From Lepisosteus oculatus (lineage: Eukaryota; Chordata; Actinopteri; Semionotiformes; Lepisosteidae), in contig NC_090699.1 of NCBI RefSeq assembly GCF_040954835.1, forward strand, positions 14,997,817 through 15,061,816: 64,000 bases of DNA, given 5' to 3'. The number at the start of each line of letters is the position of its first letter. The first letter of the stretch is position 1. Positions 6,442-64,000 of this stretch are shown piece by piece. Below the pieces are notes generated by a model that was given only the letters and a program-made list of their open reading frames with translations, was not told the DNA's origin and did not search any database. The position numbers and the translations under genes are program-made.

Positions 6442-6709
6442 ATGAGCTCAACCATCAAGGACCGGATCATGGACAGCCTGGACAGTCTGGATTCAGACAG
6501 GTTGAAGAAATTCAAGGAGAAGCTCATTGATATGGGAAAAGATGGCCAGTTCCCTAGAGCAGAAGTCGAAAAATATGATACGGTAGACCTGGCAACACGT
6601 CTGATTGCTGTCTATCAGGAACATGGAGCAGTTGAAAACACAATTAAAATTCTGCGTAACATTCACGAAAACAAAATCGCTTCAGATCTGGAAAACAGGA
6701 TGAAAGTTG
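6442..6709 (+). CDS. Gene A exon: pyrin (PYD/DAPIN) domain
   Basis: 89 codons plus one base. The pattern fits fish PYDs: an N-terminal helix (IKDRIMDSLDSL), a DRLKKFKEKL helix 2, a basic FPRAEVEKYD segment, a DLATRLIAVYQEHGAV helix and a final helix ending near LENRM. The donor is g|gtaag at 6710. The following TAA belongs to the intron. Among the paralogs A is the most diverged, for example KDGQ where B and C have GGK, and VEKYDT where B has VINYDA. Confidence 0.85.
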
Positions 6710-9700
6710 GTAAGTTCTAAAGGTGATTATTTTAAATCAGATTTATGTTTTGGTTCTCTACTTCACAGAATAGTTAAAATCTAAGTACTATGATATACTG
6801 TATATGTACATTGTGTTGTATTCACCGTGATCTATGCATGAAAGAAAAACAAAAGAAAAGTGTTCATTTATATTTTATAAATACACCTGTGCAATGATAC
6901 TGACTGCACTGCAGTAGGTCAGAAAGATCATGAAACCTGCTGGGTGGCAGCTGAGTGCTGGAGTCTGGTTGTGAGAGTGTGGAGCTCCGTACTGTTACTG
7001 CAGTCATCACTGTTTCACCCGTACTGACATTTTCCTTCATTGTCATTGACAGATGACTCTTCCGACGAGGACGAGGATGATGAAGATGAGGATGAGGACG
7101 GTGAATATTTAACATTTATTTAACATTTTCAATATTTCAGAAGAGCTGCCATCTTGTCAGAACCTGCCATCCTCTCAGAACGTTTTGAATTAAGAAAATA
7201 CAGAGAGAACAAAATGATTTTTGATCTACTCCTTTAGTTGAAAAATCAGTAACACAATACCTATTAAATCTCTATCCTCTGTTTTCCTTTGCCTGCAGAT
7301 GACTTTGCTGGAGCTTTTGCTAACTAACTTAATTTTTTTTGGTTTTTGCATATTGTAAAACTGTTGCTGATTTATTAATACCTACAATTCTGAATAAGCA
7401 GGTATCTACTTCCTGTAATGGATATGAATTGTTGTGTACTGTAAACAGTTATGGGCGGCACGTTGGGAGACAGTAGTATATTGTGGTAGTAGAGACAGTG
7501 GTAATGTTACAGTAGTTGAGACAGTGGTAGTGGTAGTACTGACAATGGTAGTACTGACAGTGGTAGTGGTAGTGTCACAAAGCCTTCTTCAGGACCTTAT
7601 GCAGATGGCAGAATCCGGAGGGGAGTGAGAGAAAAAGACTAGGAAAAAGCCGGAGTGGGATCCGGCGAAGGGTCGGGGGAATAAAGAGGGTAACGGGGCC
7701 AGGCGCTCCCAGCCCTGGACCCAGATGGTCAGGAGCCAGTTGTGAAGTCGATGCCATCAAGGCCCTCCTGGACTCACTGCTAAACGGGCTTCCAGGCGTC
7801 CATCTTCCAAAGCTGAGCCCAGGCTGGTAGGAGCGTCTGGCTTTTGTAGGACTGGGGCTGGAACCGGAGGCAGGTGTAGGAAATCAAAGATAAACAAGAA
7901 AGGGCTTCCTTGTCCTTAAGAAGAAGGGTAATGGTGGTAGAGCAGAGAAGTGCAGAGACCTTTTTGTGGGCAGTGGCTCAAAAGGGGAGAAGGGGCACTT
8001 TCCGGGGCAGGATTTGTTACATTAGAGTATCCTGGATGTAAATCAGTGCCCACTTGTATTTCTGTGTTTTTTAATTTTACAGGAAGTTTGGATGTGACTT
8101 CAGAGGGATTATAATATTCACAACCTTGGCAAAAAATGGTTGTCCATAATTGCTGATTAACATAATTGCTGTTTGATTAACAGACAATATATTATACACC
8201 CTCTACTGAGCATATGAGTGATAACATAGGGCGTAATCTAGAAATATTTTTGAGGTGAAAAAAAGATGTTTAAAAAATATGCTGAACATGTGGGTCGAAT
8301 GTTAAGCCAGAATCGAATATCACCCCTAGGTTTTTTCATTTAGACTGAAGCTCAAGTACAGAACCATCTACAGATAGGGTTACAGGATTGGCATTACAAA
8401 GTTGATGGGGGGTGCCGATAAGCATGACTTCAGTCTTGTCGCAGTTCAGATGAAAGAAATTTTGAATCATCCAAGTTTTTGTCAGACATGCAATTAGATA
8501 AAATAGAGAAAGCCACATCAGTGTCAGGTTTGGTATGGATGTATCATCAGTATTATCAGCATGGAAATGATAGCTGAGGCCATGTGATCTTAAAAGCTGA
8601 CCAAGTGGAAATATGTGTTGTGTCAAACAAATGACAGCAATCTGGGTGTCAGTGTAGCAGAAGTCTTCTTTATTACATATGCATATGGGAGCCTACCTCT
8701 TGCAGGCCAGACTCAAAGAAGTATTACAAAGAGTGGTCTTTTTGTACAGTAAAGTCTGTAAAACTTGTCCATAAAAGGGATTTGACATCGGCTGTGGACA
8801 AGAGTTAAGCAAGTTTCTCATTGTTTTTGTAACACTGCCAGGAACATATGGCAGTTATGCCTTGCGATTACAACAGACATGACAGGTCAGCATATACAGA
8901 CAAATTGGAACTACATACTTTCACAACTGCTGGAGTGGAAAGTTTCAAGACAAGTGTTTAAGATATCAAAGACTTATAGAAGAATTAAGAATAATTTCTT
9001 CACATGTAAATGCCCAGTGTCGAGCCCTGAGGAACACCAGACTTAACAAGACCAATTTCAGACCTACTGTATACCCATTAAGACAGACAAAGTGACAGCG
9101 ATCAGTGATGTAAGACTTGAACCACTTGAGAGCAGTGTCAGAAACTCCAAACACAGTCTCAAGATGAGAAAGTAAGATGTTATGGTCAACAGTGTCAAAA
9201 GCAGCACTGAGATCAAGAAGGATGAGTATAGAAAGAGAACCAGAATCAGAAGCTATTAGAAGATCGTTAGTGACTTTGACCAGGGCAGTTTCTGTGCTGT
9301 GAAGTTGACGGAAGCCAGATTGGAGGGGTTCGAAAAGGCTGTTTGTCATGAGGTGGTTAGGTAACTGAAATGTGACAGCACGTTCCAGAATTTTTGGAAG
9401 AAAGGGTAAGTTGGAGATGGGGAGAACATTGTTTAGATTGTCGAGAGCCATGTTAGGCTTTTTTGGCATGGGGGTAATGGCAGCAGTTTTGAGGACCGTT
9501 GGTACAATGTCAGTGCTCAAGGATTCATTTATAATATTGAGGACAATGGGACAGAGAGAAGAGAAACAGGACTGAAATAAAGTGGTGGGAATGGGATCTA
9601 AAATAGATGTGGTGGGTTTCATGTGCGTAACTAGTTTATTAAGGGATGTTGAGTCCAGAAGAGAGATGTTGGAGAGAGAAGAACCAGAAAAGTTCCTTTT

Positions 9701-12700
9701 GTAACACATCTTAACAAGAGGACAAAGCATAAAAAAGTTACCAATTACATGCAATACCAAATGCAATCTCTTTCCATCTTAAGAGCAAGAGTTCACATGA
9801 TAGCACATCAAATCAAAGAATTTGATGGAATGGAATTACTACACACATAGACTGTATATTTTTTGTAAATAGGCTACAGGCAGTTTTGATTTTCATCAAA
9901 ACTTAAGTCATACAATATTTACCGATGTAATCGTTCTGTTTCTGAGGTGTACGTAGAATGTAGCCTAAGGAACTGGCTTTTTTGATGACCATTTACCACT
10001 AGTTGTGCCCCAGTTATGAAGCGATGCACTCCCATTAGCTGCCTCCCTAAATTCTCTTTTTTCTCTCTTCTTTTTTATTCTGAAGGCTCTCCTGTTTCTG
10101 TGACTGAATCATATATATACATATGTACTGTATAAAGAATACGCATGTCAGCTGTTTATATCAAATTCAAAAAGACTGGCTCGTCTACTCAGTTAACTAA
10201 ATTTTCTTAAGGAAATCTCAAATCTAACTAGTTAAGTAGCCATGCAGACATTAACTTGGCGAGTTCATCAGTTTGCAAACATAGAATAGGTGAATGAAAA
10301 TAGTCTTTCTTAAACACAAAGTGCTCAATATGACATCCTTGCTGTATTACTTTTGTACAGTCCTTCTGAAAAATCTGTGTATCGTCTCACTGTTCAAAAA
10401 TGTTTAACATGAGCACCACAGGTGTGAAGTCTGCATTGTACAGTATATTACACTGTTCCAAACATTTGATATAATGGTTGCACATTTCCACTAACTTTAT
10501 AATGTGATGTAGATTACTTTGCCTCAACAGTTTTGAAATAAGCATAACCTATAATATTTGATATGTACCATCCTACTCCTTTTAAGAGAAAGCAGTGGCT
10601 AGTTCTGTATTGCTAAAGCAGGACATAAACCTGTCTGACTTTTGTGTTTCACCTGCAGATGAGTTTCCAAGACTACTGTGTAAGTAGTTTGTTTGTGTGC
10701 CTTTGTGTTTTAACATTGCTATTTTTCTCCTGACGAGTCAGTAAGTTTAAAAAGATACATATTAGATTCTTTGGTACACATATTGTATGTGTAGGTGTGC
10801 TTCTACAACACTGAAAGCTGTGACAATAACACTATTATTTCTTGTACATGCATGCCATTACATCTGCTGTTTCCTTTGAATCTACACTTAAAGGAAACTT
10901 TGTATAGAATGTAGGTCACAATGGATTACGACACCTGCTAAACAAAAGTGAGATGTTTTTCAAGATTTTCAATATAAGTAGGGTCTAGTATTCAAACTGT
11001 ACTGTATGCTCATTAAACAAGAATCTCAGTTTAAATGAATATTAAAACCCGTCCAACACATGCTTTCCTCTATTTTGCCTGCAGGCCAGCTTGCTGTGGA
11101 CCTGGGTGAGTAGCCAAAGTGTTGCAGAACTTCATTTACATGATTCCTGAAAGAGCAGACTAACTGGACAGAGACACAATGCAGTCAATGCTGGAAAGGA
11201 TCAATGCTAACCACTGCTCCACCTTGCCGGCCTTATTACCAGCTCACAAGCCAGAACATTATTAAAATAAACAGTATTTTGTGTTTTGGGATGGTTTTCC
11301 TGGGATTATGTGCATTAAATTAAAATTCTGTAAAATTACTATGTAAGTGGTATGATGAGCAAAGTCAACAGCTGGTAGCCAACATCTGTAAGTAATCATA
11401 ATAAGATCAGATCCACACCAGAGATTCCTCTGCTGAGTGAAATATTAATAAGAAAATGAAAAAAAAAACAATGCAGAGGAAAAAAAAAACAATAAGAATC
11501 TCCCAGGTTATACACTACATGATGTAGGAAAATAGATTCTTCAGTATTAATTGTTGGTGTTCTTTGTAATTTCAAGAATTAATACAGAGATCATCCTGTT
11601 TGTTTTCACTACTGCCATGACAACAGTATTATTGGAATGTTCCAGTGCTGTAGTGACAGTAGCAGGAAAAGATGTAGTGACAAAAGTAGTGCAGTAGTGA
11701 CAGCAATAATCACAGTAATAGTGACAGTATTAGCAACAGTAGTGACAGCAGTGACTGTAGCAATAAATGTTGTAGAGACAGTAGTAGTATATAGTGGTAG
11801 TAGTGTCAGCAGTAGCAACTGCAAAAGTGACAGTAGAGACATTTTAAGTGACAGTATTAGTGAGAGCAGTAGTGACAGAAGTGACAGTAGTACTGACAGT
11901 AGTAGTGCAGTGGTGGCAGTAGTGACAGCAGTGGTGTGTGCCTGTGCTGTTGGTATCTCAGGGCTGAGTATCACTAGAAGATCAGTGTTTACAGGCTGAA
12001 TGTAATGTGAAATAATGAAAGTGTAACAAAGCATAGTTCAGGACTCTATGGAGACGGTATAATCTGGAAGTACTGTAAGTGGAGAAGAACATCAGGGGAA
12101 GGTACAGCAGGATAGGACAGGTTGATAGACAGGGAGGCATGATGACTGTGATCCGGTGCTCAGGTGGCGTGGTTCTGCCAAAAGTTCAGATAGTCCAAGT
12201 GGGGAATCCTGGGTGCAGTCCGAAGTCCAAAATCCATCCAAGACAAGACAAACACAGTTAAAATCAAGAACAGGATCTGGAACAGGGACAGGGAATAAAA
12301 CCAAGGTAATGAGGCCAGGCGCTCAGATAGTCAGGACGCCGCGGTGAAGCCGATGCCGTCGGGTCACTCCTGGCTAGGAATAGCAAGAGCAGCAGGCTTA
12401 AATAAGGAGACAGAACAGGGGGCAGGTACTCAACTACAATAGAAGGGATTACGATCGGGACAGAAAGTGAGTTCACTGCTATCTCCCCACCAGCACAAGG
12501 TAAGGAAAAAAGCACCTCTCAGTTATTTGATTTTTACAGAATTTTTTTTCTTATTTTACAGAAAGATGCAGACCAAGAGGTAAGGAAAATAGGCTTTGTT
12601 TTACTCAGCCAAAAAGGTTCAGTTGGATGTGTTCTACTTAGTAAGTTACACCATACCTGTATACTTAATACGTATTTCTTTAAATAATGTATGGATTAGA

Positions 12701-15078
12701 ATCTAATGCAATTATTGAATTTCATATTAGAAAATGTCTGTGTTTTATTGTTCCCTTAAATTTCAGAGATGTTCTTCTCCGCTGTGACATCAGTGGCTGT
12801 CCTAGTGAATAGGTTTCTCAGATTCTTTGTCCTCTGTAACGGTTTGATAAAGCACGCTCACTGACGTGCAAACAGCATCAATATGGTTGTTTCTGTTCAT
12901 GTCAAATGTGGGAGGAGTTTCTGAAATATCCCCTCCTGGGGGGGCAGGTTTGCTGTCCCAGGAGTCTGAATGATCTTCTAGATCCCATCTCCCCAAATAA
13001 AAGAGTGAGCAACACATCCTCTTTTACCCTTCTGTGTCGTTCCTTCCTTCTGTTCTTGAACTCTCTGATTTCTGTGCTGTTGGCATCTCAGCGCTGAGTA
13101 TCACTAGAAGATCAGTGTTTACAGGCTGCATGTGATGTGAGCTAATGAAAGAGAGTTCACGGCCATCTCCCTGCCAGCACAGGGCGAGGAAAAAAGAACC
13201 TCCCAGATCTCTGATACCTTTTTTCTTATTTTTACAGAAAGATGCAGACCTGCAGGTAAGGAAAATCTGTTTTGTATTACTCGGCCAAAAAGGTTCAGTT
13301 GGATGTGTTCTACTAAGTGAGTTATGCTATACCTATATACTTAATACATATTTCTTTAGATACTGTATGGATTAGAATCTAATGCAATTATTGAATTTCA
13401 TATTAGAAAATGTCTGTGTTTTATTGTTCCCTTAAATTCCAGAGATTTTCTCCTCCGCTGTGACATCAGTGGCTGTCCTAGTGAATAGGTTTCTCAGATT
13501 CTGCTTCTTTGTCTGTTGTAACGATTTGATAAAGTACTGCCATTGACGTGTAAACAACATCAATATGGTTGTTTCTGATCAGGCCAAATGTGGGAGGAGT
13601 TTCTGAAATATCCCCACCTTGGGGGGCAGGTTTACTGTCCCAGGAGCCTGAATTATCTTCTAGGTCCCATCTCCCCAATAAAACAATGAGCATCATATCC
13701 TCTTTTACCTTTCTCATTTCCTCCTTCTGTTCTTGAACTCTCTGTTGTTTCTGATATTTGCTAAGCAGTTTTTTTTGTTTTTAAAGAACACATAGAGTCA
13801 GAAACTTGGTTTTATGTCCCATGAGAAGACTGATGCCTTTATACAATTCAGTGTCCCCATTATATGTAGCCATTGATGTCACAGCTGGATATACTCACCC
13901 TGACACACAAGATCATCCTGCTGCACACCTGATCTCAACACAGACAGCAGTGAAGACACACCTGTTCGCATACCTGAACTCAACACAGACAGTAGTGAAG
14001 ACACACCTGTTCACACACCTGAACTCAACACAGACAGCAGTGAAGACACATCTGTTCACACACCTCATCTCAACACAGACAGCAGTGAGACACACCTGTT
14101 CACACACCTAATCTCAACACAGACAGCAGTGAAGACACATCTGTTCACACACCTCATCTCAACACAGACAGCAGTGAGACACACCTGTTCACACACCTGA
14201 ACTCAACGCAGACAGCAGTGAAGACACATCTGTTCACATACCTGATCTCAACACACACAGCAGTGAAGACACACCTGTTACTTCCTCCAGCTGACACAAA
14301 CAAAAATTCTGGAACAAAGTTTTCAGCTTTTGTTTCTTTCTCTTTACAGAACTTGAGAGTGCACACAGGAATGCAGGTGAGACTGTTTGGTTTCTCAAGC
14401 ATTCATCAATCTCATTAAAATATACAAAGTACAGGTTCAGTGCACTGGGATTACTTAACACTGTTCATCCACAGATCTTCTCATTCGTCTCCTTTCTTGT
14501 CTATAGTGGACGTGACTCTGGACCCCAGAACAGCTCATCCCAGCCTCATTGTGTCGAGGAATGGGAAACAAGTTAGACATGGTGACATACGACAGGATCT
14601 CCCCGACAATCCAGAGAGATTTACTTCCTGTGTCAATGTCCTGGGAAAGGATGGGTTCACCTCAGGTCGACACTACTGGGAGGTGAAGGTGAAAAATAAG
14701 TCCGCCTGGACTTTAGGAGTTGTCAGAGAGTCCATCAAAAGGAAGGGGCAGATCACACTGTGCCCTGAGGCTGGCATCTGGACTGTGTGGCTGAGGGGTG
14801 GGACATACACAGCAAATTCCACTGTCCCTGTTGACCTCCGGCTGGCCCAGAAGCCCCGGAAGGTGGGGGTGTATGTGGATTATGAGGGGGGGCAGGTCTC
14901 CTTTTACAATGTGGAGGAGGAGTCTCATATTTATACGTTCACTTGCAACTTCAGGGAGAAGATCTACCCGTTCTTCAGCCCCTGTACCAATGATGGGGGT
15001 GAAAACTCCAGTAGCCACTCACTGACAGGAGTGATGAAAGCTCCACTGATCATCACTCCTGTCAGTCCCTCTGAGTGA
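6442..15078 (+). CDS. Gene A: PYD-acidic-heptad-B30.2 protein (spliced, predicted)
   Basis: The predicted exons, all phase 1 at internal borders, are 6442-6709 (PYD), 7053-7100 (acidic), 10659-10679 (DEFPRLL), 11085-11105 (QLAVDL), 12562-12579 and/or 13238-13255 (ERCRP), 14350-14376 (ELESAHRNA) and 14507-15078 (B30.2). With one ERCRP exon this gives about 324 aa. PYD domains recruit ASC or other PYD partners; B30.2 domains bind ligands. I infer a cytosolic inflammasome-type sensor or regulator. A lacks the GKRKSYLKA and DESSKEK-type exons present in B, C and E. That interval is occupied by an LTR and a LINE. Because all exons are phase 1, the loss keeps the frame. A also carries a tandem duplication of the ERCRP exon and the alternative hydrophobic exon. 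The start ATG opens the PYD and matches the paralogs. Exon borders follow AG/GT sites but lack transcript support. Confidence 0.75.
7053..7100 (+). CDS. Gene A acidic exon
   Basis: Acceptor 'ttgacag' at 7046-7052 and donor gtgaat after 7100. The 48-bp phase 1-1 exon encodes an Asp/Glu stretch after DDSS. The paralogs have 51 bp because of one extra GAT repeat. The GAT/GAG/GAC run is prone to slippage. Confidence 0.75.
7299..7327 (+). CDS. Gene A alternative terminal exon (PYD-only isoform candidate)
   Basis: Acceptor 'ctgcag' precedes an in-phase reading DDFAGAFAN and then TAA. C and E keep the same exon as DDFVGALAK and then stop, and B has lost the acceptor. Splicing from the acidic exon into it would yield a roughly 115-aa PYD-acidic protein without B30.2. 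No canonical AATAAA is seen close downstream, so this could instead be a decayed exon. Confidence 0.4.
7470..7572. repeat. GTAGTGACA-type low-complexity array, gene A intron
   Basis: A short degenerate run of GTAGT, GACAGT and GGTAGT words in the intron after the alternative exon. Longer versions of the same array occur in the introns of B, C, D and E. Confidence 0.8.
7573..8021. mobile_element. Solo-LTR-like repeat
   Basis: Begins tgtcacaaag and ends tttgttaca (TG...CA). It contains the shared words 'gcagatggcagaatccgg' and 'ggggccaggcgctc'. The same repeat begins at 44809 in locus D at the same position in the GTAGT array, and similar family members lie at 12022, 29496 and about 31303. No clear target-site duplication is visible. 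Confidence 0.5.
8206..9707 (-). mobile_element. L2-clade LINE fragment (reverse transcriptase), minus strand
   Basis: The minus strand encodes RT palm sequence with PKILERAVTFQL, FEPLQSGFRQLHSTETAL and the catalytic-Asp motif LDLSAAFDTVDHNIL at about 9705-9100. A downstream part at 8626-8336 has a degenerate YADDT box (HFHADNTDDTS) and NCDKTEVMLIG. The 3' part of the LINE, present in locus D, is deleted here at about 8206, and an unrelated insert of about 330 bp (8630-8960) splits the RT. It is dead, and antisense to the host gene. Confidence 0.8.
8630..8960. mobile_element. Unclassified insertion inside the LINE RT
   Basis: Sequence between the LINE 'GVPQG'-type region and the YADDT-type region that does not fit the RT reading frame. 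The same insert is present in each of the three 2170-bp units of locus D, so the nested insertion predates the duplication of loci A and D. It starts near 'tgtgttgtgtcaaac'. The element family is not recognised. Confidence 0.45.
10659..10679 (+). CDS. Gene A mini-exon DEFPRLL
   Basis: A 21-bp phase 1-1 exon with acceptor ctgcag and donor gtaagt. It is homologous to the DKLLKQL/DELLKQL exon of B, C and E and to 51994-52014 in pseudogene D. Heptad-size exons like this sit before B30.2 in butyrophilin genes. Confidence 0.65.
11085..11105 (+). CDS. Gene A mini-exon QLAVDL
   Basis: A 21-bp phase 1-1 exon with acceptor cctgcag and donor gtgagt. It is conserved in B (25392-25412), C (36900-36920), D (52427-52447) and E (60584-60604), with both splice sites intact in all copies. 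Confidence 0.7.
11640..11935. repeat. GTAGTGACA-type array, gene A intron
   Basis: About 300 bp of degenerate (agtagtgac)-like repeats with tri- and hexanucleotide drift. The reading frames through it (Ser/Val/Thr or Leu/Thr rich on either strand) are low-complexity artefacts. Confidence 0.85.
12022..12462. mobile_element. Solo LTR with 5-bp target-site duplication
   Basis: Ends are tgtaacaaag...cgggaca (TG...CA, 441 bp), flanked by gaaag at 12017-12021 and 12463-12467. Gene C keeps the uninterrupted site 'aatgaaagtgagctcac' near 38325. A 'gcttaaataagg' box in the 3' part is shared with the 31303 element. It sits in the intron before the first ERCRP exon. Confidence 0.7.
12562..12579 (+). 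CDS. Gene A mini-exon ERCRPR (copy 1)
   Basis: An 18-bp phase 1-1 exon with acceptor tttacag and donor gtaagg. The duplicate is at 13238-13255. Including one or both copies keeps the frame. Confidence 0.6.
12767..12864 (+). CDS. Gene A alternative hydrophobic terminal exon, copy 1
   Basis: Acceptor tttcag, then in phase EMFFSAVTSVAVLVNRFLRF and a short tail ending in TGA. An AATAAA follows at 12996-13001. The same reading frame is preserved in 13443-13546, in C and in E despite intron drift, which argues for coding use. It would replace B30.2 with a hydrophobic tail. Confidence 0.5.
13238..13255 (+). CDS. Gene A mini-exon ERCRPA (copy 2)
   Basis: An 18-bp phase 1-1 exon with acceptor tttacag and donor gtaaggaaa. 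It is the second member of the duplicated exon pair. Confidence 0.6.
13443..13546 (+). CDS. Gene A alternative hydrophobic terminal exon, copy 2
   Basis: Acceptor attccag, then EIFSSAVTSVAVLVNRFLRF, a Cys/Phe-rich stretch CFFVCCN, and TGA. AATAAA is at 13677-13682. It is more like C and E than copy 1 is, which lacks two codons after RF. Confidence 0.5.
13918..14290. repeat. 43/45-bp minisatellite before the penultimate exon of gene A
   Basis: About eight units of the type 'ctgatctcaacacagacag' + 'cagtgaagacacacctgtt' + 'cacacac'. Two units are 43 bp (gtgagacac instead of gtgaagacac) and alternate with 45-bp units, giving an 88-bp higher-order repeat. Gene B (about 29410-29495) and C/E (about 39565-39640 and 63250-63325) have only about two units. 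Confidence 0.85.
14350..14376 (+). CDS. Gene A mini-exon ELESAHRNA
   Basis: A 27-bp phase 1-1 exon with acceptor ctttacag and donor gtgaga. It precedes B30.2. The paralogs read EFESARTNA (B) and EFERARRNA (C, E). The arrangement resembles the short exon next to B30.2 in butyrophilin genes. Confidence 0.7.
14507..15078 (+). CDS. Gene A exon: PRY-SPRY (B30.2) domain and stop
   Basis: Acceptor ctatag at 14501-14506. The exon starts VDVTLDPRTAHPSLIVS (PRY) and continues through RFTSCVNVLG, GRHYWEVKV, WTLGVV, VGVYVDYEGGQVSFYNV and YTFTCNF to IITPVSPSE and TGA. All landmark B30.2 motifs (LDP, WEV, LGV, DYE) are present. A has a 10-residue insertion near the C-terminus (SHSLTGVMKA) absent from B and C. 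The loop after ITL reads CPEAGIWTVWLRGGTYTANS, unlike B and C. A longer ORF starting at 14440 only reads back into the intron. Confidence 0.9.
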
Positions 15079-20428: not shown

Positions 20429-20696
20429 ATGAGCTCAACCATCAAGGACCACATCATCCACAGCCTGGAGAGTCTGGATTCAGACAGGTTGAAGAGATTT
20501 AAGGACAAGCTCATTGACATGGGAGAAGGAGGCAAGTTCCCTAGAGCAGAAGTCATCAACTATGATGCTATAGAGCTGGCAACACGTCTGATTGCTGTCT
20601 ATCAGGAACACGGCGCTGTTAAAAAGACAATTGCAATTCTGCGTGGCATTCACGAAAACAAAGTCGCTTCAGATCTGGAAAGCAAGATAGAATGTG
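20429..20696 (+). CDS. Gene B exon: pyrin (PYD) domain
   Basis: MSSTIKDHIIHSLESL start, DRLKRFKDKLIDMG helix region, FPRAEVINYDAIELATRL, YQEHGAVKKTIAIL and an end in LESKIEC, then donor gtaagt. It has the same length and splice phase as A, C and E. The PYD surface is rich in Lys/Arg on helix 2 and Asp/Glu elsewhere, as expected for charge-driven PYD-PYD contact. Confidence 0.85.
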
Positions 20697-37318: not shown

Positions 37319-37349
<31 letters not shown>

Positions 37350-44783: not shown

Positions 44784-44808
44784 AAGTAGTGACAGTGGTA
44801 GTGGTAGT

Positions 44809-45255: not shown

Positions 45256-45444
45256 ATTAGAGTATCCTGGATCCAAATCAGTGCCCACTTATATTTCTGT
45301 GTTTTTTAATTTTACAGGAAGTTTGGATGTGACTTCAGAGGCATTATAATATTCACAACCTTGGCAAAAAATGGTTGTCCATAATTGCTGATTAACATAA
45401 TTGCTGTTTGATTAACAGACAATATATTATACACCGTCTACTGA

Positions 45445-47814: not shown

Positions 47815-48318
47815 TTAAGTAAAGGCTCTTCTAAAGAAGAAGGTTTTAAATCTGGATTTGAAGGAGTTTAGAGAAGGTGACTCTCTGATATCCTTGGGAA
47901 GAGAGTTCCAGAGTTTGGGGGCATAACAGGAGAGGACCCTGTCACCCATAGAATGAAGACGGGCTTGGGGGACAGTTAGAAGACCAGAATTAGAAGAGCG
48001 AAGGTTGTGAGGTGCGGAGTAGGGCGATGATAGTTCAGACAGGTACTGAGGTGCCAGGCCATGCAGAGCCTTATAGGTTAGAATGAGGATATTAAAGTCC
48101 ACACGGAATTTGACAGGAAGCCAGTGCAGGGACCCCAGGATAGGAGTAATGTGAACACTTGCACTAGACCCATTCAGGATTCCGTCTGCTGAATTTTGGA
48201 CACACTGCAGTTTTATCAATGTAGATTTAGATACCCCAGAGATTAGAGCTCTACAGTAGTAAATTCGGGAGAACATAATTGTGTTGATCAGCTTTTCAGC
48301 CACAGTAAGTGATAACAT
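47815..48318 (-). mobile_element. L2-clade LINE ORF tail, unit 2
   Basis: Same 167-aa reading as unit 1, differing by Leu to Ile in CRAL(L/I)SG. Confidence 0.85.
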
Positions 48319-49984
48319 AGGGCGTAATCTAGCGATATTTTTGAGGTGAAAAAAAGATGTTTAAAAAATGCTGAACATGTGGGTCGAATGTTAAGCCAGA
48401 ATCAAATATCACCCCTAGGTTTTTTCATTTAGACTGAAGCTCAAGTACAGAACCATCTACAGACAGGGTTACAGGAATGGCATTACAAAGTTGATGGAGG
48501 TGCCGATAAGCATGACTTCAGTCTTGTCGCAGTTAAGATGAAGGAAATTTTGAATCATCCAAGTTTTTGTCAGACATGCAATTAGATAAAATAGAGAAAG
48601 CTACATCGGGGTAAGGTTTGGTAAGGATGTATTATCAGTATTATCAGCATGGAAATGATAGCTGAGGCCATGTGATCTTAAAAGCTGACCAAGTGGAAAC
48701 ATGTGTTGTGTCAAACAAATGACAGCAAACTGGGTGTCAGTGTAGCAGAAGTCTTCTTTATTACATATGCATATGGGAGCCTACCTCTTGCAGGCCAGAC
48801 TCAAAGAAGTATTACAAAGAGTGGTCTTTTTGTACAGTAAAGTCTGTAAAACTTGTCCATAAAAGGGATTTGACATCGGCTGTGGACATGAAGAAGAGTT
48901 AAGCAAGTTTCTCATTGTTTTTGTAACACTGCCAAGAACATATTGCAGTTATGCCTTGCGATTACAACAGACATGACAGGTCAGCATATACAGACAAAAG
49001 TGGAACTACATACTTTCACAACTGCTGGAGTGGAAAGTTTCAAGACAAGTGTTTAAGATATCAAAGACTTATAGAAGAATTAAGAATAATTTCTTCACAT
49101 GTAAATGCCCAGTATCAAGCCCTGAGGAACACCAGACTTAACAAGACCAATTTCAGACCTACTATATACCCATTAAGACAGACAAAGTGACAGGGATCAG
49201 TGAGAGAAAAAGACTAGGAAAAAGCCGGAGTGGGATCCGGCGAAGGGTCGGGGGAATAAAGAGGGTAACGGGGCCAGGCGCTCCCAGCCCTGGACCCAGA
49301 TGGTCAGGAGCCAGTTGTGAAGTCGATGCCATCAAGGCCCTCCTGGACTCACTGCTAGGCGGGCTTCCAGGCGTCCATCTTCCAAAGCTGAGCCCAGGCT
49401 GGTAGGAGCGTCTGGCTTTTGTAGGACTGGGGCTGGAACCGGAGGCAGGTGTAGGAAATCAAAGATAAACAAGAAAGGGCTTCCTTGTCCTTAAGAAGAA
49501 GGGTAATGGTGGTAGAGCAGAGAAGTGCAGAGACCTTTTTGTGGGCAGTGGCTCAAAAGGGGAGAAGAGGCACTTTCCGGGGCAGGATTTGTTACATTAG
49601 AGTATCCTGGATCCAAATCAGTGCCCACTTATATTTCTGTGTTTTTTAATTTTACAGGAAGTTTGGATGTGACTTCAGAGGCATTATAATATTCACAACC
49701 TTGGCAAAAAATGGTTGTCCATAATTGCTGATTAACATAATTGCTGTTTGATTAACAGACAATATATTATACACCGTCTACTGAGCATATACTTTATTTT
49801 CCTGATATAATAATCATCAACTTTATTTTATATAGCAACTTAAAGGGTGGCTTCTCGAAGCGCTTTACAGAATGACAACAACAATAAATACAAACAATAC
49901 ACAAGATAAAACACAATTACAATATACAGAGCAGACCATAGATGGTGGTACTAAGAAAAGCAGAGGGGTGAAGAATGGAACCAG

Positions 49985-50488
49985 TTAAGTAAAGGCTCTT
50001 CTAAAGAAGAAGGTTTTAAATCTGGATTTGAAGGAGTTTAGAGAAGGTGACTCTCTGATATCCTTGGGAAGAGAGTTCCAGAGTTTGGGGGCATAACAGG
50101 AGAGGACCCTGTCACCCATAGAATGAAGACGGGCTTGGGGGACAGTTAGAAGACCAGAATTAGAAGAGCAAAGGTTGTGAGGTGGGGAGTAGGGCGATAA
50201 TAGTTCAGACAGGTACTGAGGTGCCAGGCCATGCAGAGCCTTATAGGTTAGAATGAGGATATTAAAGTCCACACGGAATTTGACAGGAAGCCAGTGCAAG
50301 GATCCCAGGATAGGAGTAATGTGAACACTTGCACTAGACCCATTCAGGATTCCGTCTGCTGAATTTTGGACACACTGCAGTTTTATCAATGTAGATTTAG
50401 ATACCCCAGAGAGTAGAGCTCTACAGTAGTAAATTCGGGAGAACATAATTGTGTTGATCAGCTTTTCAGCCACAGTAAGTGATAACAT
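49985..50488 (-). mobile_element. L2-clade LINE ORF tail, unit 3
   Basis: Same 167-aa reading, with a few differences around LSELLSPYSPPHNLCSS. A 2-bp insertion follows its start on the minus strand. Confidence 0.85.
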
Positions 50489-51372
50489 ATAGGGCGTAAT
50501 CTAGCGATATTTTTGAGGTGAAAAAAAGATGTTTAAAAAATGCTGAACATGTGGGTCGAATGTTAAGCCAGAATCAAATATCACCCCTAGGTTTTTTCAT
50601 TTAGACTGAAGCTCAAGTACAGAACCATCTACAGACAGGGTTACAGGAATGGCATTACAAAGTTGATGGAGGTGCCGATAAGCATGACTTCAGTCTTGTC
50701 GCAGTTAAGATGAAGGAAATTTTGAATTATCCAAGTTTTTGTCAGACATGCAATTAGATAAAATAGAGAAAGCTACATCGGGGTAAGGTTTGGTAAGGAT
50801 GTATCATCAGTATTATCAGCATGGAAATGATAGCTGAGGCCATGTGATCTTAAAAGCTGACCAAGTGGAAACATGTGTTGTGTCAAACAAATGACAGCAA
50901 ACTGGGTGTCAGTGTAGCAGAAGTCTTCTTTATTACATATGCATATGGGAGCCTAGCTCTTGCAGGCCAGACTCAAAGAAGTATTACAAAGAGTGGTCTT
51001 TTTGTACAGTAAAGTCTGTAAAACTTGTCCATAAAAGGGATTTGACATCGGCTGTGGACATGAAGAAGAGTTAAGCAAGTTTCTCATTGTTTTTGTAACA
51101 CTGCCAGGAACATATTGCAGTTATGCCTTGCGATTACAACAGACATGACAGGTCAGCATATACAGACAAAAGTGGAACTACATACTTTCACAACTGCTGG
51201 AGTGGAAAGTTTCAAGACAAGTGTTTAAGATATCAAAGACTTATAGAAGAATTAAGAATAATTTCTTCACATGTAAATGCCCAGTATCGAGCCCTGAGGA
51301 ACACCAGACTTAACAAGACCAATTTCAGACCTACTATATACCCATTAAGACAGACAAAGTGACAGGGATCAG

Positions 51373-51974
51373 TGAGGTAAGACTTGAACCACTTGAGAGC
51401 AGTGTCAGAAACTCCAAACACAGTCTCAAGACGAGAAAGTAAGATGTTATGGTCAACAGTGTCAAAAGCAGCACTGAGATCAAGAAGGATGAGTATAGAA
51501 AGAGAACCAGAATCAGAAGCTATTAGAAGATCGTTAGTGACTTTGACCAGGGCAGTTTCTGTGCTGTGAAGTTGTTGGAAGCCAGATTGGAGGGGTTCGA
51601 AAAGGTTGTTTGTCATGAGGTGGTTACGTAACTGAAATGTGACAGCACGTTCCAGAATTTTTGGAAGAAAGGGTAAGTTGGAGATGGGGAGAACATTGTT
51701 TAGATTGTCGAGAGCCATGTTAGGCTTTTTTGGCATGGGGGTAATGGCAGCAGTTTTGAGGACCGTTAGTACAATGTCAGTGCTCAAGGATTCATTTATA
51801 ATATTGAGGACAACGGGACAGAGAGAAGAGAAACAGGACTGAAATAAAGTGGTGGGAATGGGATCTAAAATAGATGTGGTGGGTTTCATGTGTGTAACTA
51901 GTTTATTAAGGGATGTTGAGTCCAGAAGAGAGATGTTGGAGAGAGAAGAACCAGAAAAGTTCCTCTCGTAACAC
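51373..51974 (-). mobile_element. L2-clade LINE RT core at locus D
   Basis: The minus strand encodes LDLSAAFDTVDHNILL and upstream RT blocks, nearly identical to 9100-9707. The element's 5' truncation point is at about 51974, only about 20 bp from the acceptor of the DELPRLL exon. Confidence 0.8.
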
Positions 51975-56642: not shown

Positions 56643-56910
56643 ATGAGCTCAGCCATCAAGGACCACATCATCCACAGCCTGAAGAGTCTGGATTCAGACA
56701 GGTTGAAGAGATTTAAGGACAAGCTCATTGACATGGGAGGAGGAGGCAAGTTCCCTAGAGCAGAAGCAATCAACTATGATGCCATAGAGCTGGCAACACG
56801 TCTGATTGCTGTCTATCAGGAACACGGCGCTGTTAAAAAGACAATTACAATTCTGCATGGCATTCACGAAAACAAAGTCGCTTCAGATCTGGAAAGCAAG
56901 ATAGAATGTG
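56643..56910 (+). CDS. Gene E exon: pyrin (PYD) domain
   Basis: As gene C except for one Arg-to-His change in the last helix region; same length and donor. Confidence 0.87.
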
Positions 56911-59900
56911 GTAAGTTCTAAAGGTGATTCTTTTAAAATCAGACTCTTTTTTTGGTGTTTTACTTCACAGAATAGTTAAAAGCTTGTGTTGTTGTTCTTC
57001 TCTTTCTTAAAGAGAGGTTTCCTTTTCAGATCTATATTGAATGTCTCATCACAGTAAAAGAGGTTAAATATACAGTAGCTGCTCATTATTAGAGTATACT
57101 GATAGAAATGGAGGATGTCATAACAAATAAGGGGACCTTATCTTTACTAAAGCTATGTATTCTGTTTTTAAAAACAAGCAAAATGCTTCATAAAACAAGT
57201 GTCTCTACACAGTTGTAAATGAAAGGTCAGGAAAGGGTCAAACCCTGATCTCACCCACTGACACCTTCCCATGTATGCACTTCATGAGCCTGTGTGACTC
57301 TCCTCCCTCCTGCACGAAGTCATTGTGCTTCAGCAGCTTCCTGGCTCATCCAGACACACAGGTTGCCATTCTGACAGCCACTGGCAAGTTCAGAAAACAA
57401 GTTGAGATCAGGCCCCTACTCAGAACAGAAACTTGAGTCACTCATTGTGACTTTATTCTAGTTCTGGAGTTCTGTATGCACATTATCTACATATCGTGAT
57501 ATACTGTATATGTGCACTGTATTGTACCGTGATCTATGCATGAAAGAAAAACAAATGAAAAGTGTTCATTTATATTTTATAAATACACCTCTGCAATGAT
57601 ACTGACTGTACCGCAGTAGGTCAGAAAGATCATGAAATCTGCTGGGTGGCAGCTGAGTGCTGGAGTCTGGTTGTGAGAGTGTGGAGCTCCGTACTGTTAC
57701 TGCAGTCATCAGTGTTTCACCCGTACTGACATTTTCCTTCATTGTCATTGACAGATGACTCTTCTGATGAGGACGAGGATGATGATGAAGATGAGGATGA
57801 GGACGGTGAGTATTTATCATTTATTTAACATTTTCAATATTTCAGAAGAGCTGCCATCTTGTCTGAACCTGCCATCCTCTCACAATGTTTTTTTGATAAT
57901 GAAGAACAGAGAACAGAGAGAACAAAACAATTTTCTGATCTTATCCTTCATTCCTGAGACTCTCAGCTTTAGACTACTTTGAAAAAACCTTTACCAGTAA
58001 CACAATACCTATTAAATCTCTATCCTCTGTTTTCCTTTGCCTGCAGATGACTTTGTTGGAGCCTTAGCTAAGTAACTTGAGTGTTTTTGGTTTGTGCAGA
58101 TTGTAAAACTGCTGCTATATTTATTAATGCCTATAAGGCTGAATATGCAGGCATCTGTTTCCTGTAGTGGACATGAATTGTTGGGTACTGTACACAGTTA
58201 TGGTCAGAGCGTTGTTGGCATTGCTGACTTGCAGCGCTGAGGCCCTGGGTTCACTTCCGGATTGGGAGTGCTGTCTGTGTGGAGTTGACATGTTCTCCCC
58301 GTGTTGTTTCTGCAGCTGCTCTTATTTCCTCTGATAATCCAAAGACATGCTGACAGGTTAACTGGCTCCTGGGAAATCTGGCCCTGGTGTGAGTCTGTCT
58401 GTGTGTCTTGTAATGGACTGGCATCCTGTGCAGGGTGTATCCTTGTGCCTGTTGCTTTCTGGGATAGGCTCTGACTTCCCTGTAGCCCATAAAGTGGTTA
58501 GAACATGGATGGACGGGTGAATAGATGCACACGAGCCCTGTTTTCAGTCTCACTGGCATCTTGTACAACAGCTCTTCTCTATGACTTTGACATAAACCTG
58601 GGCCTTCATACCTGTTCTGTTTCTGATTTGATCTTAACAAAGCCCTTTGTTTCAGGGAAGAGAAAGAGCTATCTCAAGGCAAGTTAAAAAACCAATAAGT
58701 GGGTTCATCTCTAAAACCTCAATGGTCACAAAAGTTGCTGCATTTCATTTCCTCTTAAATAAGAACGACTCATTACCAATCAACTGGTAGAACCTGCAGG
58801 ACCAAGATAATGAGAAGGAATCTGCTCCTCATGGGATGAGCTTGTAAGGGATAATGAAAGTAAAATACATTCACACCTTCATGCCAGATACATGAGAACA
58901 TAAGAAAGTGTGCAAAGAAGCGTGAGGCCACTTAGTCCATTTTGCTCATTTGGTTTTTAGTTTGAAAAACTATACAGTACTTCCTGTTCCTGATTCTCAT
59001 GAGAGGTTTACATTTCGGGGGCAGACTGTGTAATTTTGCAGTGAACAGTGGATTTTGTTGCTTTCACTCACACACTTGTGAGACTGTTGCCTCATTAACA
59101 CTTGTTTTGAGATTTCCTTTTCCCCTCTGATATTTTGCTAGAGAATTGACTGCACTCGTGACAACAGTGGTGGTAGTAGTGACAGCTGCAGTGATAGTAG
59201 TGACTGCAGTAAAGTAGTGACAGTAGTATTAGAGGGAATGACAGTGGTAGTAATAGTAGTGACAGCAGAATTGGTGGTAGTTTCAGTGGTAGTGACTGCA
59301 CTAAAATAGTGACAGTAGTGGTACAAGTAGTGACAGTAGTAGTGGTAGTAATGACAGTGGTATTGACAGCAGTAGTGACAACAATACTTACTGCAGTAGC
59401 GGCTGCAGTAGTGACTGCAGTACAGTTGTAGTGCAGTAGTAGTAGTAATGACATTAGTAGTGATTGCAGTAGTGCTGTCAAACTTTCATCATAAAAAAAA
59501 TTCAAAGATACTGCAGGTCTTGATCTACAATAAATGTTTGCAAGGATGATGTATGTGCAGCCGGCCTTTTGTGTGCACTAAAGAATCCAGGAGGATCACA
59601 CAAAAAATCATCAGTGCTATTACTGATTTCAGCACTGATATATTTTATCAAGCTTTTTATTTTCCTTTTTTTGACATGTTTTTTTATTTGCATTGACAGA
59701 AGAGACTTCTAAAGAGATGGGTAAGTTTTAAATATTTTTAGTAACAAGAGAAGGAATATTTTCAATATTGGAAACCTTAATACACCTTAAGATGTTCCTT
59801 AAGATATGTCTTAATACACATCTGCACTATGCACGTTTTACCTAGTGTACCATTTTTTTGGTCTCACTACTACATATTTATTTTCCAGAAAATATATGTC

Positions 59901-60999
59901 ATCCCTGTTGTCTACATTGTTTAGTGTTGTCTGTTGTACTGTGCATGTCCCGAGAGATCAGCGCGATTAAGAATTCCAATGTACGTCTACATACAGTATG
60001 GCAATATACTACTCTACTCTCCCTCTCCTCCAAAAAAAAGGATTAGAGAAGTGTGCATTATATATTACAGTGCACCTAACATAATATTTTATGTAATGCT
60101 TGAACATTTCCAATCAGAATTGTCATGCAATGTATTACCTTTCCATGCCTTAAACAGTTTTGAAACAAGCATGAAGTGAATTCAGTAGAACTACAGTATT
60201 TGATTTGAATCATCCTATTCCTCTGTAGAGAAAGCAGTGAATAGGTCTGTATTGCGGAAGTAGGAGTTAAACCTGTCTGACTTTTGTGTTTTACCCACAG
60301 ATGAGCTTTTAAAACAACTGCGTAAGTACTCTGTCTGTGTGTGTCTTTGTGTTTTAACAGTAATGTTTCTACCAATGAAAGTACTGATGTTTAGACAGAC
60401 AGATGCTACAGTAGTGTCTTTTGGACTCATATGTGCAGGTCTGCTTCTACAACACTGAAAGCTGTGACAATAACATAACCCAAGCAGTCTAGCATTCAAA
60501 CTGTATGTACATTAAACAAGAATCTTAGTTTTAATTAATATTAAAATCCATCCAACCCATGCTTTCCTTTATTTTGCCTGCAGGCCGGCTTGCTGTGGAG
60601 CTGGGTGAGTAGCCTATGTGTGCTGTTCTACCCTAAAATTTCTACTGAACTTCATTTACATGACTCCTGAAAGAGCAGACTAACTGGACAGAGTGCAGTC
60701 AGTGCTGGAAGGGAGCAATGTTAGCCACAGCTCCACCTTGTCAGCCTTATTACCAGCTCACAAGTCAGAAAATTATTAAAATAAGCAGATGTTGGTGTTT
60801 TGGGATGATTATATGCATACAATTAAAATGATCTAAAATTACCATGTAAGTGGTATGATGAGCAGAGTCAACATCTGTAAATAATCAGAACAAGATCAGA
60901 TCCACACCAGAGATTCCTCTGCTGAGTGAAAAATTAATCAACTACACATAAATTACTTTTATTCAGTAAATATATTCTGAATAATAATAATAATAATAA

Positions 61000-61030
<31 letters not shown>

Positions 61031-64000
61031 AAGAAGAAATATTTTTAATGTTATATAATAATAATTACCTAAAAATAAAAAAATGCTTTATTTCCACTAT
61101 ACTAATATACCACAGTTATTTACATTGAAGAAAAAAACAAAGCAGACAAAAAAAAACAGTAAGAATCTCCCAGATTATACACTACCTGACAATCAAGAAT
61201 ATAGATTCTTCAGTACTAGTTAACCGTCTGTGTTGGTCTTCTTCATAATTTCAAGTAATAATACAGAGATCACTACTGCCATGACAACAGTATTATTGCA
61301 ATGTTGCAGAGCTGTAGTTACAGTAGCAGGAACAGGTGTTGGGACAATAGTAATGCAGTAGTGACAGCAGTATTCACAGTAATAGTGACAGCAGTGACTG
61401 CAGTAATAAACGTAGTAGAGACTGTAGCAGTACAGTATATAGTGGTAGTAGTGCCAGCAGTAGTAACTGCAAAAGTGACAGTAAAGTCATTATTAGTGAC
61501 AGTTGTAGGGGATTTTGTGATTTTACTGGGAGAATCATTAATTGTAGCAGTAATCATGCGGTAGTTCGTTATGGCTTTTAGAAAATCAATCGTCAGAACA
61601 ACTAACAACGCACAGACACGGATTTGATGCACGAAACACATTTATTAAACATAAATTGTGCACCAAACATATATCAGTCTGCATGGATACAGGCGGCAGA
61701 CCTTACTGTGAGGGTTATCAATATACAAGGTACACAATCTCAAAGAGATGCAAACACAAAGAGATACAGAACAGAGCATATATTTTAATACTGTATATCG
61801 TTCGGCTATACCAAATCGCTAGTCAGTGTCATTACCCACTGTTATACTAGACTCGGAAGTACAGCAGAAGCAACAGTAGGATCTACAGTAGTAGTGCAGT
61901 GGTGGCAGTACTGACAGCAGTGGTTTGTGCCTGTACCCTTTGCATCTCAGAGCTGAGCATCAGTTCAAGATAAGATCAGTGTTTACAGGTTGCACGTGAT
62001 TTGAGCTAATGAAAGTGAGCTCACTGCCATCTCAATCTCTCAATCTCCCAGTTCTCTGATACCCTTTTTCTTATTGTTATAGAAAGATGCAGACCTGGAG
62101 GTAAGGAAAATATGTCCTGTTACGTAGTTCCAATACCTCAGTTGGATGTGTTCCACTAAGTGTATACCTGTATACTTAATACATATTTCTATAGATGCTG
62201 CATGGATTTGGATGTAATGCAATTATTGGATTTCATATTAGAAAATGTCTGCGTTTTATTTTTCCCTTAAATTCCAGAGATTTTCTTCTCCGCTGTGACA
62301 TCAGTGGCTGTCCTAGTAAATAGGCTTCTCAGATTCTGCTTCTTTGTCTGCTGTAACGATTTGATAAAGCACTCTCACTGACATGCAAACAGCATCAATA
62401 TGGTTGTTTCTGTTCAAGTCAAAAGTGGTAGGAGTTTCTGAAATATCCCCACCTGGTGGGGCAGGTTTACTGTCCCAGGAGTCTGAATGATCCTCTAGAT
62501 CTCATCTCCCCAAATAAAAGAGTGAGCATCACTCTTCCTGATATTTGCTAGGCAGCTCTTTTTCATTAATAAATAAATAATCCTTACACATATAGAGGCT
62601 TTTTAGGACACTGCACTCAAAGCTCTTCACAGATAACAGGGACTCCCCTCCACCAGCACCAATGCGCAGCCCCACCTGGATGATGCAACAGCAGCCATAG
62701 AGTGATGAAGCCAGTTCAGAGACGGGGATAATTAGGAAGCCATGACTGGTAAAGGCCAGGGGGAAATTTGGCGGGGACATCAGGGTAACACCTCTACTCT
62801 TTTCGAAAAACACCCTGGGATTTTTAATGACCACATACAGTATAGTCTGGACCTCAGTTTTACTAAGACTGAAGCTTTTATACAGTACAGTCCCCATTGT
62901 GTATGTCTATTGATGTCACATTTTCAAGTCTGTCTGTAGCATGTTTTTCCTGGGAGTCAGGTCTGCTCTTTCTATGGAGGCACCTACTCCTCCAGCTTGT
63001 TGTTTTTTCAGAAGGAGCTCTCTGAAGCAAGACCTTGAAGTCAGGATCCTGCTTGTATACTGAGGTCATAGCCCTCCTCACAGGAGTCTGAGCCCTTTCT
63101 CTGTTCCAGAGCTTCTGACTGTGAAGCACTGAGGCAGAGCTGTGGCTCAGGGACAGAGAGCAGTTCAAACTCCACTGTGGGAGGAGCAGCATCACACAGC
63201 ACTGTCTCCAGCTGGACACACCCCTGACACACAAGATCACCCTGCTGCACACCTGATCTCAACACAGACAGCAGTGAGACACACCTGTTCACACACCTGA
63301 TCTCAACACAGACAGCAGTGAAGACAATCTTATTTTATTTCCAGCTGCAAACTGATATAAAATTTGTTACAGTTTTTTTTCTTTTACTATCATTCCTTTC
63401 TCTTTACAGAATTTGAGAGGGCACGCAGGAATGCAGGTGAGACTGTTTGCTTTCTCAAGCATTCGTCAATCTCATTAAAATACACAAAGTACAGGTTCAG
63501 TGCCCAGGGATTACTTAACACTGTTCATCCACAGATCTTCTCATTCGTCTCCTTTCTTGTCCATAGTGGACGTGACTCTGGACCCTAGAACAGCTCATCC
63601 CCGTCTCATTGTGTCTAGGAATGGGAAACAAGTCAGACATGGTGACATACGACAGGATCTCCCGGACAATCCAGAGAGATTTACTTCCTGTGTCAATGTC
63701 CTGGGAAAGGATGGGATCACCTCAGGTCGACACTACTGGGAGGTGAAGGTTGGAAAGAAGACTGAGTGGGATTTAGGAGTTGTCAGAGAGTCTATCAAAA
63801 GGAAGGGGCAGATCACACTGAGTCCTGAGGATGGGTTCTGGATGGTGTGGTTGAGGGATGGAAGTTACAAAGCAATCACAACCCCTTCTGTCAAGCTACC
63901 CCTGACCATGAAGCCCCGGAAGGTGGGGGTGTATGTGGATTATGAGGGGGGGCAGGTCTCCTTTTACAATGTGGAGGAGGAGTCTCATATTTATACGTTC
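56643..64000 (+). CDS. Gene E: PYD-acidic-heptad-B30.2 protein, 3' end beyond window
   Basis: Exons are 56643-56910 (PYD), 57755-57805 (acidic), 58656-58682 (GKRKSYLKA), 59700-59720 (EETSKEM), 60301-60321 (DELLKQL), 60584-60604 (RRLAVEL), 62083-62100 (ERCRPG), 63410-63436 (EFERARRNA) and 63567 onward (B30.2, cut by the window edge after SHIYTF). Alternative terminal exons are at 58047-58075 and 62278-62381, with AATAAA at 62513-62518. It is a twin of gene C at exon and intron level, with one PYD residue change (His for Arg in ITILHGI). Function is as for C. Near-identity means an assembly duplicate must be excluded, but distinct 5' flanks and the flipped palindrome loop argue for two loci or two haplotypes. 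Confidence 0.75.
57755..57805 (+). CDS. Gene E acidic exon
   Basis: A 51-bp phase 1-1 exon, same as in C. Confidence 0.75.
58047..58075 (+). CDS. Gene E alternative terminal exon (PYD-only isoform candidate)
   Basis: DDFVGALAK then TAA, acceptor cctgcag; same as in C. Confidence 0.42.
58199..58514 (+). mobile_element. SINE, gene E intron
   Basis: Duplicate of the gene C SINE. Confidence 0.7.
59154..59474. repeat. GTAGTGACA-type array, gene E
   Basis: Twin of 35470-35790. A second array is at 61304-61564. Confidence 0.85.
62278..62381 (+). CDS. Gene E alternative hydrophobic terminal exon
   Basis: Same as 38594-38697 in gene C, AATAAA at 62513-62518. Confidence 0.52.
63567..64000 (+). CDS. 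Gene E exon: PRY-SPRY (B30.2) domain, partial at window end
   Basis: Acceptor tccatag, VDVTLDPRTAHPRLIVS start, GKKTEW and SPEDGFWMVW loops as in C. The window ends inside the exon, after the EEESHIYTF region. Confidence 0.88.

Follow-up and report, generated by a model that had tools for sequence, protein, structure and literature searches.

The question raised by a 64,000-nt stretch of the Lepisosteus oculatus genome (C4:14997817-15061816, C4 being contig NC_090699.1 of this 1.2-Gb genome; hereafter the window) is what kind of gene joins an N-terminal pyrin domain (PYD) to a C-terminal B30.2 domain through an acidic exon and a chain of mini-exons of 18, 21 and 27 bp. On the plus strand of the window there are four B30.2 exons and five PYD exons, of which four are open and one is broken. 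As judged from the sequence, these genes are most likely B30.2-armed nucleators of ASC, pyrin-like in operation. Human pyrin is the familial Mediterranean fever protein, and the cluster is apparently a stripped-down, separately built counterpart of it. Cluster sequence was read directly over C4 14740001-14940000 and 14997817-15111500, the segment C4 14940001-14997816 being left out. Positions without a contig name are those of the window.

Domains and exon chain

The original prediction had described the five PYD and four B30.2 exons on one strand, had linked them by conserved phase-1 mini-exons and one acidic exon, and had proposed a profile search for PYD and SPRY. Pfam PYRIN matched each of the four PYD exons that are open (60, 52.9, 49.3 and 48.5 bits at a cut-off of 22.9 bits; E 2.5e-16 to 9.9e-13), and PRY and SPRY matched all four B30.2 exons. 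The fifth PYD, a broken relic at 42270-42510 (+), was found as a partial match only: its DNA is 70-71% identical to the g1 and g3 PYD exons, a 49-aa segment at 42270-42410 is 65% identical, and its open reading frame (ORF) has no Pfam hit. The exon order is common to all four units (g1, g2, g3 and g5, all on the plus strand) and runs PYD, acidic exon, 21-bp, 18-bp and 27-bp mini-exons, B30.2. All mini-exons are in phase 1 with AG/GT borders. Two 21-bp exons are present in g1 and three each in g2, g3 and g5; g1 has two 18-bp exons and the other units one each, every unit has one 27-bp exon, and the acidic exon measures 48 bp in g1 and 51 bp elsewhere.

The exons between PYD and B30.2 were placed by reading the exon chain, and the 27-bp exons in addition by a genome pattern search. 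In g1, the PYD exon (6442-6709, 89 aa, E 2.5e-16, with a phase-1 donor at its splice border) is followed by the acidic exon (7053-7100, also placed by the spliced frame), 21-bp exons at 10659-10679 (EFPRLL) and 11085-11105 (QLAVDL), two copies of the 18-bp exon at 12562-12579 and 13238-13255, the 27-bp exon at 14350-14376 (LESAHRNA) and a B30.2 exon at 14507-15078 (PRY E 1.4e-23, SPRY E 3.1e-27), which includes the stop and a 10-aa insertion near the C-terminus. The g2 unit comprises the PYD exon at 20429-20696 (E 4.3e-14), the acidic exon at 21541-21591, 21-bp exons at 24335-24355 (ESSKEK), 25107-25127 (KLLKQL) and 25392-25412 (RLAVEL), the 18-bp exon at 26022-26039 (RCRPG), the 27-bp exon at 30005-30031 (FESARTNA) and B30.2 with its stop at 30162-30703. 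In g3 the corresponding exons lie at 32959-33226 (PYD, E 5.5e-13), 34071-34121 (acidic), 36016-36036 (ETSKEM), 36617-36637 (ELLKQL) and 36900-36920 (RLAVEL), 38399-38416 (18 bp, RCRPG), 39726-39752 (27 bp, FERARRNA) and 39883-40424 (B30.2 with stop). Finally, g5 has its PYD exon at 56643-56910 (E 9.9e-13), the acidic exon at 57755-57805, 21-bp exons at 59700-59720 (placed by the spliced frame), 60301-60321 and 60584-60604, the 18-bp exon at 62083-62100 (these three and the acidic exon by exon chain and spliced frame), the 27-bp exon at 63410-63436 and a B30.2 exon at 63567-64000 that crosses the window end and is complete in the flank to 64108.

Spliced as predicted, the frames are open throughout, with 331 codons in g1 and 323 in g2, g3 and g5 (stop counted), giving predicted products of 322-330 residues. 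Each mini-exon and the acidic exon has a length divisible by three, so the frame is kept when one of them is skipped. The PYD ATG is preceded by an in-frame stop two codons upstream in all four units, and a TATA-type TATAAATA lies 42-43 bp upstream of that ATG; by reading, it was also seen upstream in the further units gC, gD and g6 and not in gA. Interferon-type promoter motifs gave no pattern.

As a control for chance, candidates were counted under a strict rule that admits only mini-exons with an acceptor satisfying a pyrimidine rule, a donor, a length of 18, 21 or 27 bp and an open phase-1 frame. Between PYD and B30.2, the introns of g1, g2 and g3 hold 4, 3 and 3 such candidates, against means of 0.10, 0.18 and 0.12 in dinucleotide shuffles, and the observed count was reached in 0/200, 1/200 and 0/200 shuffles, respectively. 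Over the whole window the same rule finds 14 candidates on the plus strand and none on the minus strand. With the same order in each unit, the shuffle controls and the open frames, the mini-exon chain originally proposed holds, and there is little doubt about a gene architecture of PYD, acidic exon, mini-exons and B30.2.

The tandem cluster

Searched with the PYRIN profile, the genome yielded 37 matches, every one of the 46 candidates having been scored; of these matches 13 fall on C4 14.78-15.08 Mb. The genome was also searched with the g3 B30.2 domain (best 150 of 356 candidates) and for B-boxes (best 150 of 266). Among the matches listed, 11 intact PYD exons alternate with 11 B30.2 exons over the 156 kb of C4 14.927-15.083 Mb; each intact PYD has a single B30.2 behind it, 3.2-9.7 kb away, before another intact PYD begins. 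The B30.2 exon is full-length in 10 of the 11 units and truncated in gC (C4 14931130). Two broken PYD relics, behind the B30.2 exons of g3 and of g5, are absent from the PYRIN-profile list and are left out of this count.

The 27-bp exon lies directly upstream of B30.2 in every one of the 11 units. Searched with its splice sites and up to three mismatches, it occurs 14 times in 1.2 Gb, always on the plus strand of C4 14.789-15.083 Mb, and the reversed pattern used as a control had no match in the genome; the pattern was built from family copies, so that their recovery is by construction and the informative part is the absence elsewhere. As evidence against chance, this genome-wide result is stronger than the shuffles. 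On this DNA-level check, 11 of 11 intact PYD exons lead to one B30.2 exon behind a cluster-private 27-bp exon, which supports the claimed linkage of PYD and B30.2 in one gene and a single tandem gene family.

The g3 and g5 blocks are 99.6% identical across 8 kb in DNA comparison, and the block duplication is thus partly recent. Such recent duplication could by itself maintain an array of non-functional, decaying pseudogenes, a view with which one broken PYD in the window, one truncated B30.2 and the degenerate units gA and gB also agree. We regard it as improbable: the four units checked all have open frames and intact splice borders across all exons, the 27-bp exon is kept in 11/11 units, and the ratio of nonsynonymous to synonymous substitution rates (dN/dS) of the B30.2 domain is 0.11-0.42 in the six pairs of g1, g2, g3 and g6. 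All dN/dS values are Nei-Gojobori estimates from our own script.

B-box, RING and NACHT

The original prediction saw no B-box, RING or NACHT between the two domains, and none was found where they were looked for. No B-box lies in C4 14640947-15193471 among the best 150 of the 266 genome candidates, and B-box, RING and NACHT P-loop motifs, searched without a positive control, were absent from six frames of 293.7 kb (93.7 + 200 kb, without C4 14940001-14997816). In g1-g3, no open stretch on the plus strand of the introns between PYD and B30.2 is longer than 138 aa, compared with 167 positions in the NACHT profile.

These results bear on fish NLRs of the NLRP3-like and NLR-C kinds, in which PYD and B30.2 stand at opposite ends as they do here; two reports describe fish NLRs with PYD and/or B30.2 (PMC9978379, PMC6988351). 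The units could then be PYD-NACHT-LRR-B30.2 genes with an overlooked middle, or the leftovers of such genes. The absence of the P-loop motif from the 293.7 kb scanned and the short intron frames of g1-g3 largely contradict this already, which makes it the least probable of the explanations weighed, and an NLR origin was rejected on these two results. The family also differs from such NLRs in its total of 322-330 residues.

Relatives of the PYD

Eight of the 37 PYD matches, seven of them outside the window, were cut out as loci for comparison. The family PYDs are 37-49% identical to three PYD exons on contig C30 and 22-40% to three on contig C2. A CARD exon sits among the C30 exons, and NACHT adjoins the C2 PYD exon of locus L008. 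Two of the C30 exons (L004, L006) finish in phase-1 donors like the family PYD, as read by eye, and the third (L001) runs into a stop. By identity, then, the PYD appears nearest to ASC-type PYDs of its own genome and resembles ASC (PYCARD) in the phase of its exon end; the family differs in having B30.2 where ASC has CARD. A tree of ten PYDs places the family at a node of 0.991; its neighbour group consists of L006 and two C2 PYDs (0.755), and the joint node has 0.605. An AlphaFold model of the PYD, with a mean predicted local distance difference test (pLDDT) score of 71.3, had the ASC PYD as top Foldseek match (TM 0.70, E 1.7e-3), with the PYDs of pyrin, NLRP3 and NLRP6 coming close behind.

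The three tandem PYD exons on C30:9384464-9394736 (L001, L006, L004), with the CARD exon among them, may be a small ASC cluster, and the ORF of L001 (C30:9391518-9394736), with a stop directly after the domain, possibly encodes a PYD-only protein adjoining ASC-type genes. Elsewhere, C14:35.07-37.44 Mb holds fourteen weak PYRIN matches (30-36 bits) across 2.4 Mb, perhaps NLR arrays.

Relatives and variation of the B30.2 domain

The ten nearest B30.2 exons outside the family form one group, 69-75% identical, on C4 13.77-14.06 Mb, about 1 Mb from the cluster (best 150 of 356). Among the matches listed they sit among eight B-box exons and are thus TRIM-type genes, at a guess of the TRIM39/bloodthirsty type; some B30.2 exons of this group have no B-box partner among those matches. 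TRIM-type pairs flank the cluster on both sides, at 14.64 and 15.19 Mb (again among the matches listed). Another B30.2 group at C4 8.5-8.7 Mb is more distant (56-64% identical), with no B-box among the matches listed. The family is set apart from TRIM genes with B30.2 by its PYD and mini-exons and by the lack of a B-box in the searches above.

The tail had originally been called butyrophilin-style. This fits the exon layout: short, phase-1, heptad-like exons precede B30.2 in the family, and two papers report several very short heptad exons upstream of B30.2 in BTN genes (PMC6790196) and 21-nt repeat exons in chicken BG (PMC4046983). The description does not fit the sequence of the B30.2 domain, since its nearest relatives, among the matches listed, lie among TRIM-type B-box exons, and descent of the tail from a butyrophilin was rejected on these neighbours. 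A PYD stands where butyrophilins have Ig and transmembrane parts. Among PDB sequences the best matches of the B30.2 domain were pyrin (194 bits), TRIM21 (182) and BTN3A1 (168). In locus L037 (C4 8.55 Mb, a B30.2 gene without B-box among the matches listed) B30.2 is preceded by what may be a 27-bp exon in phase 1, as read by eye; its pyrimidine tract is full, but its donor failed the script rule; in L036, a B30.2 gene of the 13.9-Mb group, the 760 bp read contained no convincing 27-bp exon. Under a relaxed rule L036 has three 27-bp candidates and L037 four, which makes both findings weak, the exon seen in L037 and its absence from L036.

The match to pyrin raises the alternative that these are true MEFV/TRIM20 orthologues, fish pyrin by descent, that have lost B-box and coiled coil. 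PYD and B30.2 occur together in both, the B30.2 domain matches pyrin best among PDB sequences, with 91/174 aligned residues (52%) of g3 B30.2 identical to one pyrin chain, and a prostasin-like protease gene lies near the cluster. Human 16p13.3, where MEFV resides, likewise has proteases of this kind. The cluster flanks comprise PR-domain/zinc-finger and CLCA genes in addition to the prostasin-like gene; the former two are not known as neighbours of MEFV, and MEFV synteny, an idea that came from the protease gene, was rejected on them. Few TRIM B30.2 domains are present in the PDB, which leaves a top match to pyrin weak evidence of kinship. The B-box is missing over the span given above (best 150 of 266 candidates), and the nearest B30.2 domains of the genome lie among local B-box exons (among the matches listed). 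Descent from MEFV is hence unlikely. Because the B-box is missing, we do not count the family as members of MEFV/TRIM20, though they are most likely pyrin-like in operation. One study places the origin of pyrin at the tetrapod base, in an event that recombined an NLR with the TRIM-type gene next to it (PMC4852459); in two others, trim20 is reported in pufferfish and not in zebrafish (PMC3137616), and TRIM20 was not found in birds (PMC10445537).

Variation within the domain is unevenly placed. Of the variable B30.2 positions among g1, g2 and g3, 23/27 fall in residues 43-115, for which P 4e-7 is only indicative, the region having been picked after seeing the data; this region includes the counterparts of pyrin M680 and M694 in the alignment. 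Where the B30.2 copies differ much, silent and replacement changes alike are concentrated mid-domain, as expected if gene conversion evened out the ends or the middle was imported. For the B30.2 exon, AlphaFold gave a model with a mean pLDDT of 34.3, which was not used.

Old copies and origin

Further left in the cluster, gA and gB are PYD exons with only B30.2 pieces behind them, and gB has lost the normal start. Synonymous divergence (dS) of the PYD is 0.77-0.94 from gA to the others, compared with 0-0.17 among the others. What can still be aligned between gA/gB and g3 is the PYD together with two of the three 18-bp exons and their splice flanks, the B30.2 pieces and stretches resembling dispersed or simple repeats, and the 27-bp exon persists there too. 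Since the mini-exons align while most of the intron does not, the mini-exons have been kept and most intron sequence has not, which places the linkage of the parts before the most recent duplications. No further conserved exon-like segment that could represent the central scaffold of pyrin (about 170 residues) was found between gA/gB and g3, no coiled-coil search having been run.

Taken by its parts, the family looks like a mosaic of an ASC-like PYD, a butyrophilin-like mini-exon layout and a TRIM-type B30.2 domain. An ASC-type phase-1 PYD exon would have landed upstream of phase-1 mini-exons and of a B30.2 exon whose relatives are TRIM-type genes on that chromosome; the fused unit would then have multiplied. 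We hold it tentatively, with somewhat less than even confidence, that a fish lineage in this way built a 'pyrin' for a second time from local parts (ASC-type PYD, butyrophilin-like heptad mini-exons, TRIM-type B30.2), lacking B-box and scaffold, and multiplied it into one-chain B30.2-to-ASC triggers with diverging recognition loops.

Proposed function

The product is probably cytosolic and would consist, from N- to C-terminus, of the ASC-like PYD, an acidic patch, a linker that is short, heptad-like and encoded by the mini-exons, and the B30.2 domain. The latter would bind a target of microbial or altered-self nature; when several molecules gather on that target, perhaps aided by the linker, they would align their PYDs, and the aligned PYDs would seed the PYD filament of ASC, with activation of inflammatory caspases. 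The family shares with pyrin the N-terminal PYD, predicted to meet ASC, and the C-terminal B30.2, and differs from it in the lack of a detected B-box, the mini-exon linker, the 11 tandem units and a B30.2 domain closer to TRIM-type genes of the same chromosome. Without the pyrin scaffold, either the target or the PYD would have to provide avidity. That tandem B30.2-armed PYD genes serve as ASC triggers is probably the best explanation overall, and activation of ASC is slightly favoured over its inhibition.

Of the filament-interface positions of ASC, those aligned to K21, K22 (K or R), K26, R41 and D48 are unchanged in seven PYD sequences of the alignment, and g1 and gC retain both acidic interface-aligned residues. 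One of these acidic positions is His in g2, g3, g5 and g6, and the second is Lys in g3 and g5; copies changed in this way might differ from the rest in polarity or serve as caps. In PYDs of close copies dN/dS is 0.41-2.73 in 12/15 pairs and undefined in three, compared with 0.37-0.46 to gA, the PYD offering few synonymous sites.

The same residues bear on a reading in which the products are inhibitors or decoys, B30.2-targeted relatives of PYD-only proteins that would cap the PYD filaments of ASC or NLRs, with B30.2 setting place and time. They are small PYD proteins in which no CARD, caspase or NACHT was found, acidic interface residues are altered in g2, g3, g5 and g6, and dN/dS of the PYD is near-neutral to raised. 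With both acidic residues retained in g1 and gC and the five other interface-aligned positions kept in seven PYDs, we consider inhibition a less likely role, although a more credible one than pseudogene decay or MEFV descent.

Several observations weigh against the proposal that the family triggers ASC. The interface changes to His and Lys named above are among them, and the raised dN/dS of the PYD fits adaptation but also relaxed constraint. The weak PYD tree does not show an ASC origin, and the link to ASC rests on identity. The gC unit has a truncated B30.2, and gA and gB look degenerate. The residues that align with pyrin M680 and M694 (82 and 94-95) are invariant among g1-g3; M694 has been suggested, in one study, to take part in ligand binding (PMC4455283). 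According to the same study, pyrin needs dimerisation via its long scaffold for one tested binding (PMC4455283), and no such long helical scaffold was seen here, with no coiled-coil search run.

Neighbouring sequence and repeats

Left of the cluster, loci L035 and L034 (C4:14720001-14740000) contain ORFs with PR-domain and zinc fingers in at least two copies, presumably PRDM9-like. Loci L024-L025 (C4:14893046-14903525) carry a tandem row of seven ORFs (207-228 aa), most of them spaced at about 1.65 kb; a single one was tried, and it matched nothing in Pfam. Integrase-like mobile-element ORFs lie at the left edge of the window (1506-2381), one of them with weak Pfam matches below the cut-off. 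Between the g1 acidic exon and the first 21-bp exon, 8966-9778 on the minus strand is a long interspersed nuclear element (LINE)-like reverse transcriptase ORF (RVT_1, E 9.8e-13). The region 44785-51974 consists of three near-identical copies about 2.17 kb apart that match a single copy at 7550-9707 (96-99%) and bear minus-strand ORFs resembling the reverse-transcriptase ORF of that region. Imperfect AGTGACAGTAGT-type repeats occur in the introns of the units at 11826-11936, 22653-22817, 25656-25928, 35474-35696 and 59158-59380.

Significance

The original prediction recognised no named family with this layout. Our literature search met no description of a PYD-mini-exon-B30.2 family without B-box and NACHT, a weak negative as most subscription papers and all preprints were outside its scope, and automatic names for such predicted fish proteins may already exist. 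The cluster represents a PYD-B30.2 junction that departs from the usual layout of pyrin; its chromosome has many B-box and B30.2 exons, and the matching exon phases can still be seen. If functional, it would test the minimum needed for turning B30.2 recognition into ASC signalling, with no B-box and no long coiled coil. Furthermore, if a second-built pyrin proves true, the family would be a class of inflammasome receptor alongside NLRs, AIM2-like receptors and pyrin.

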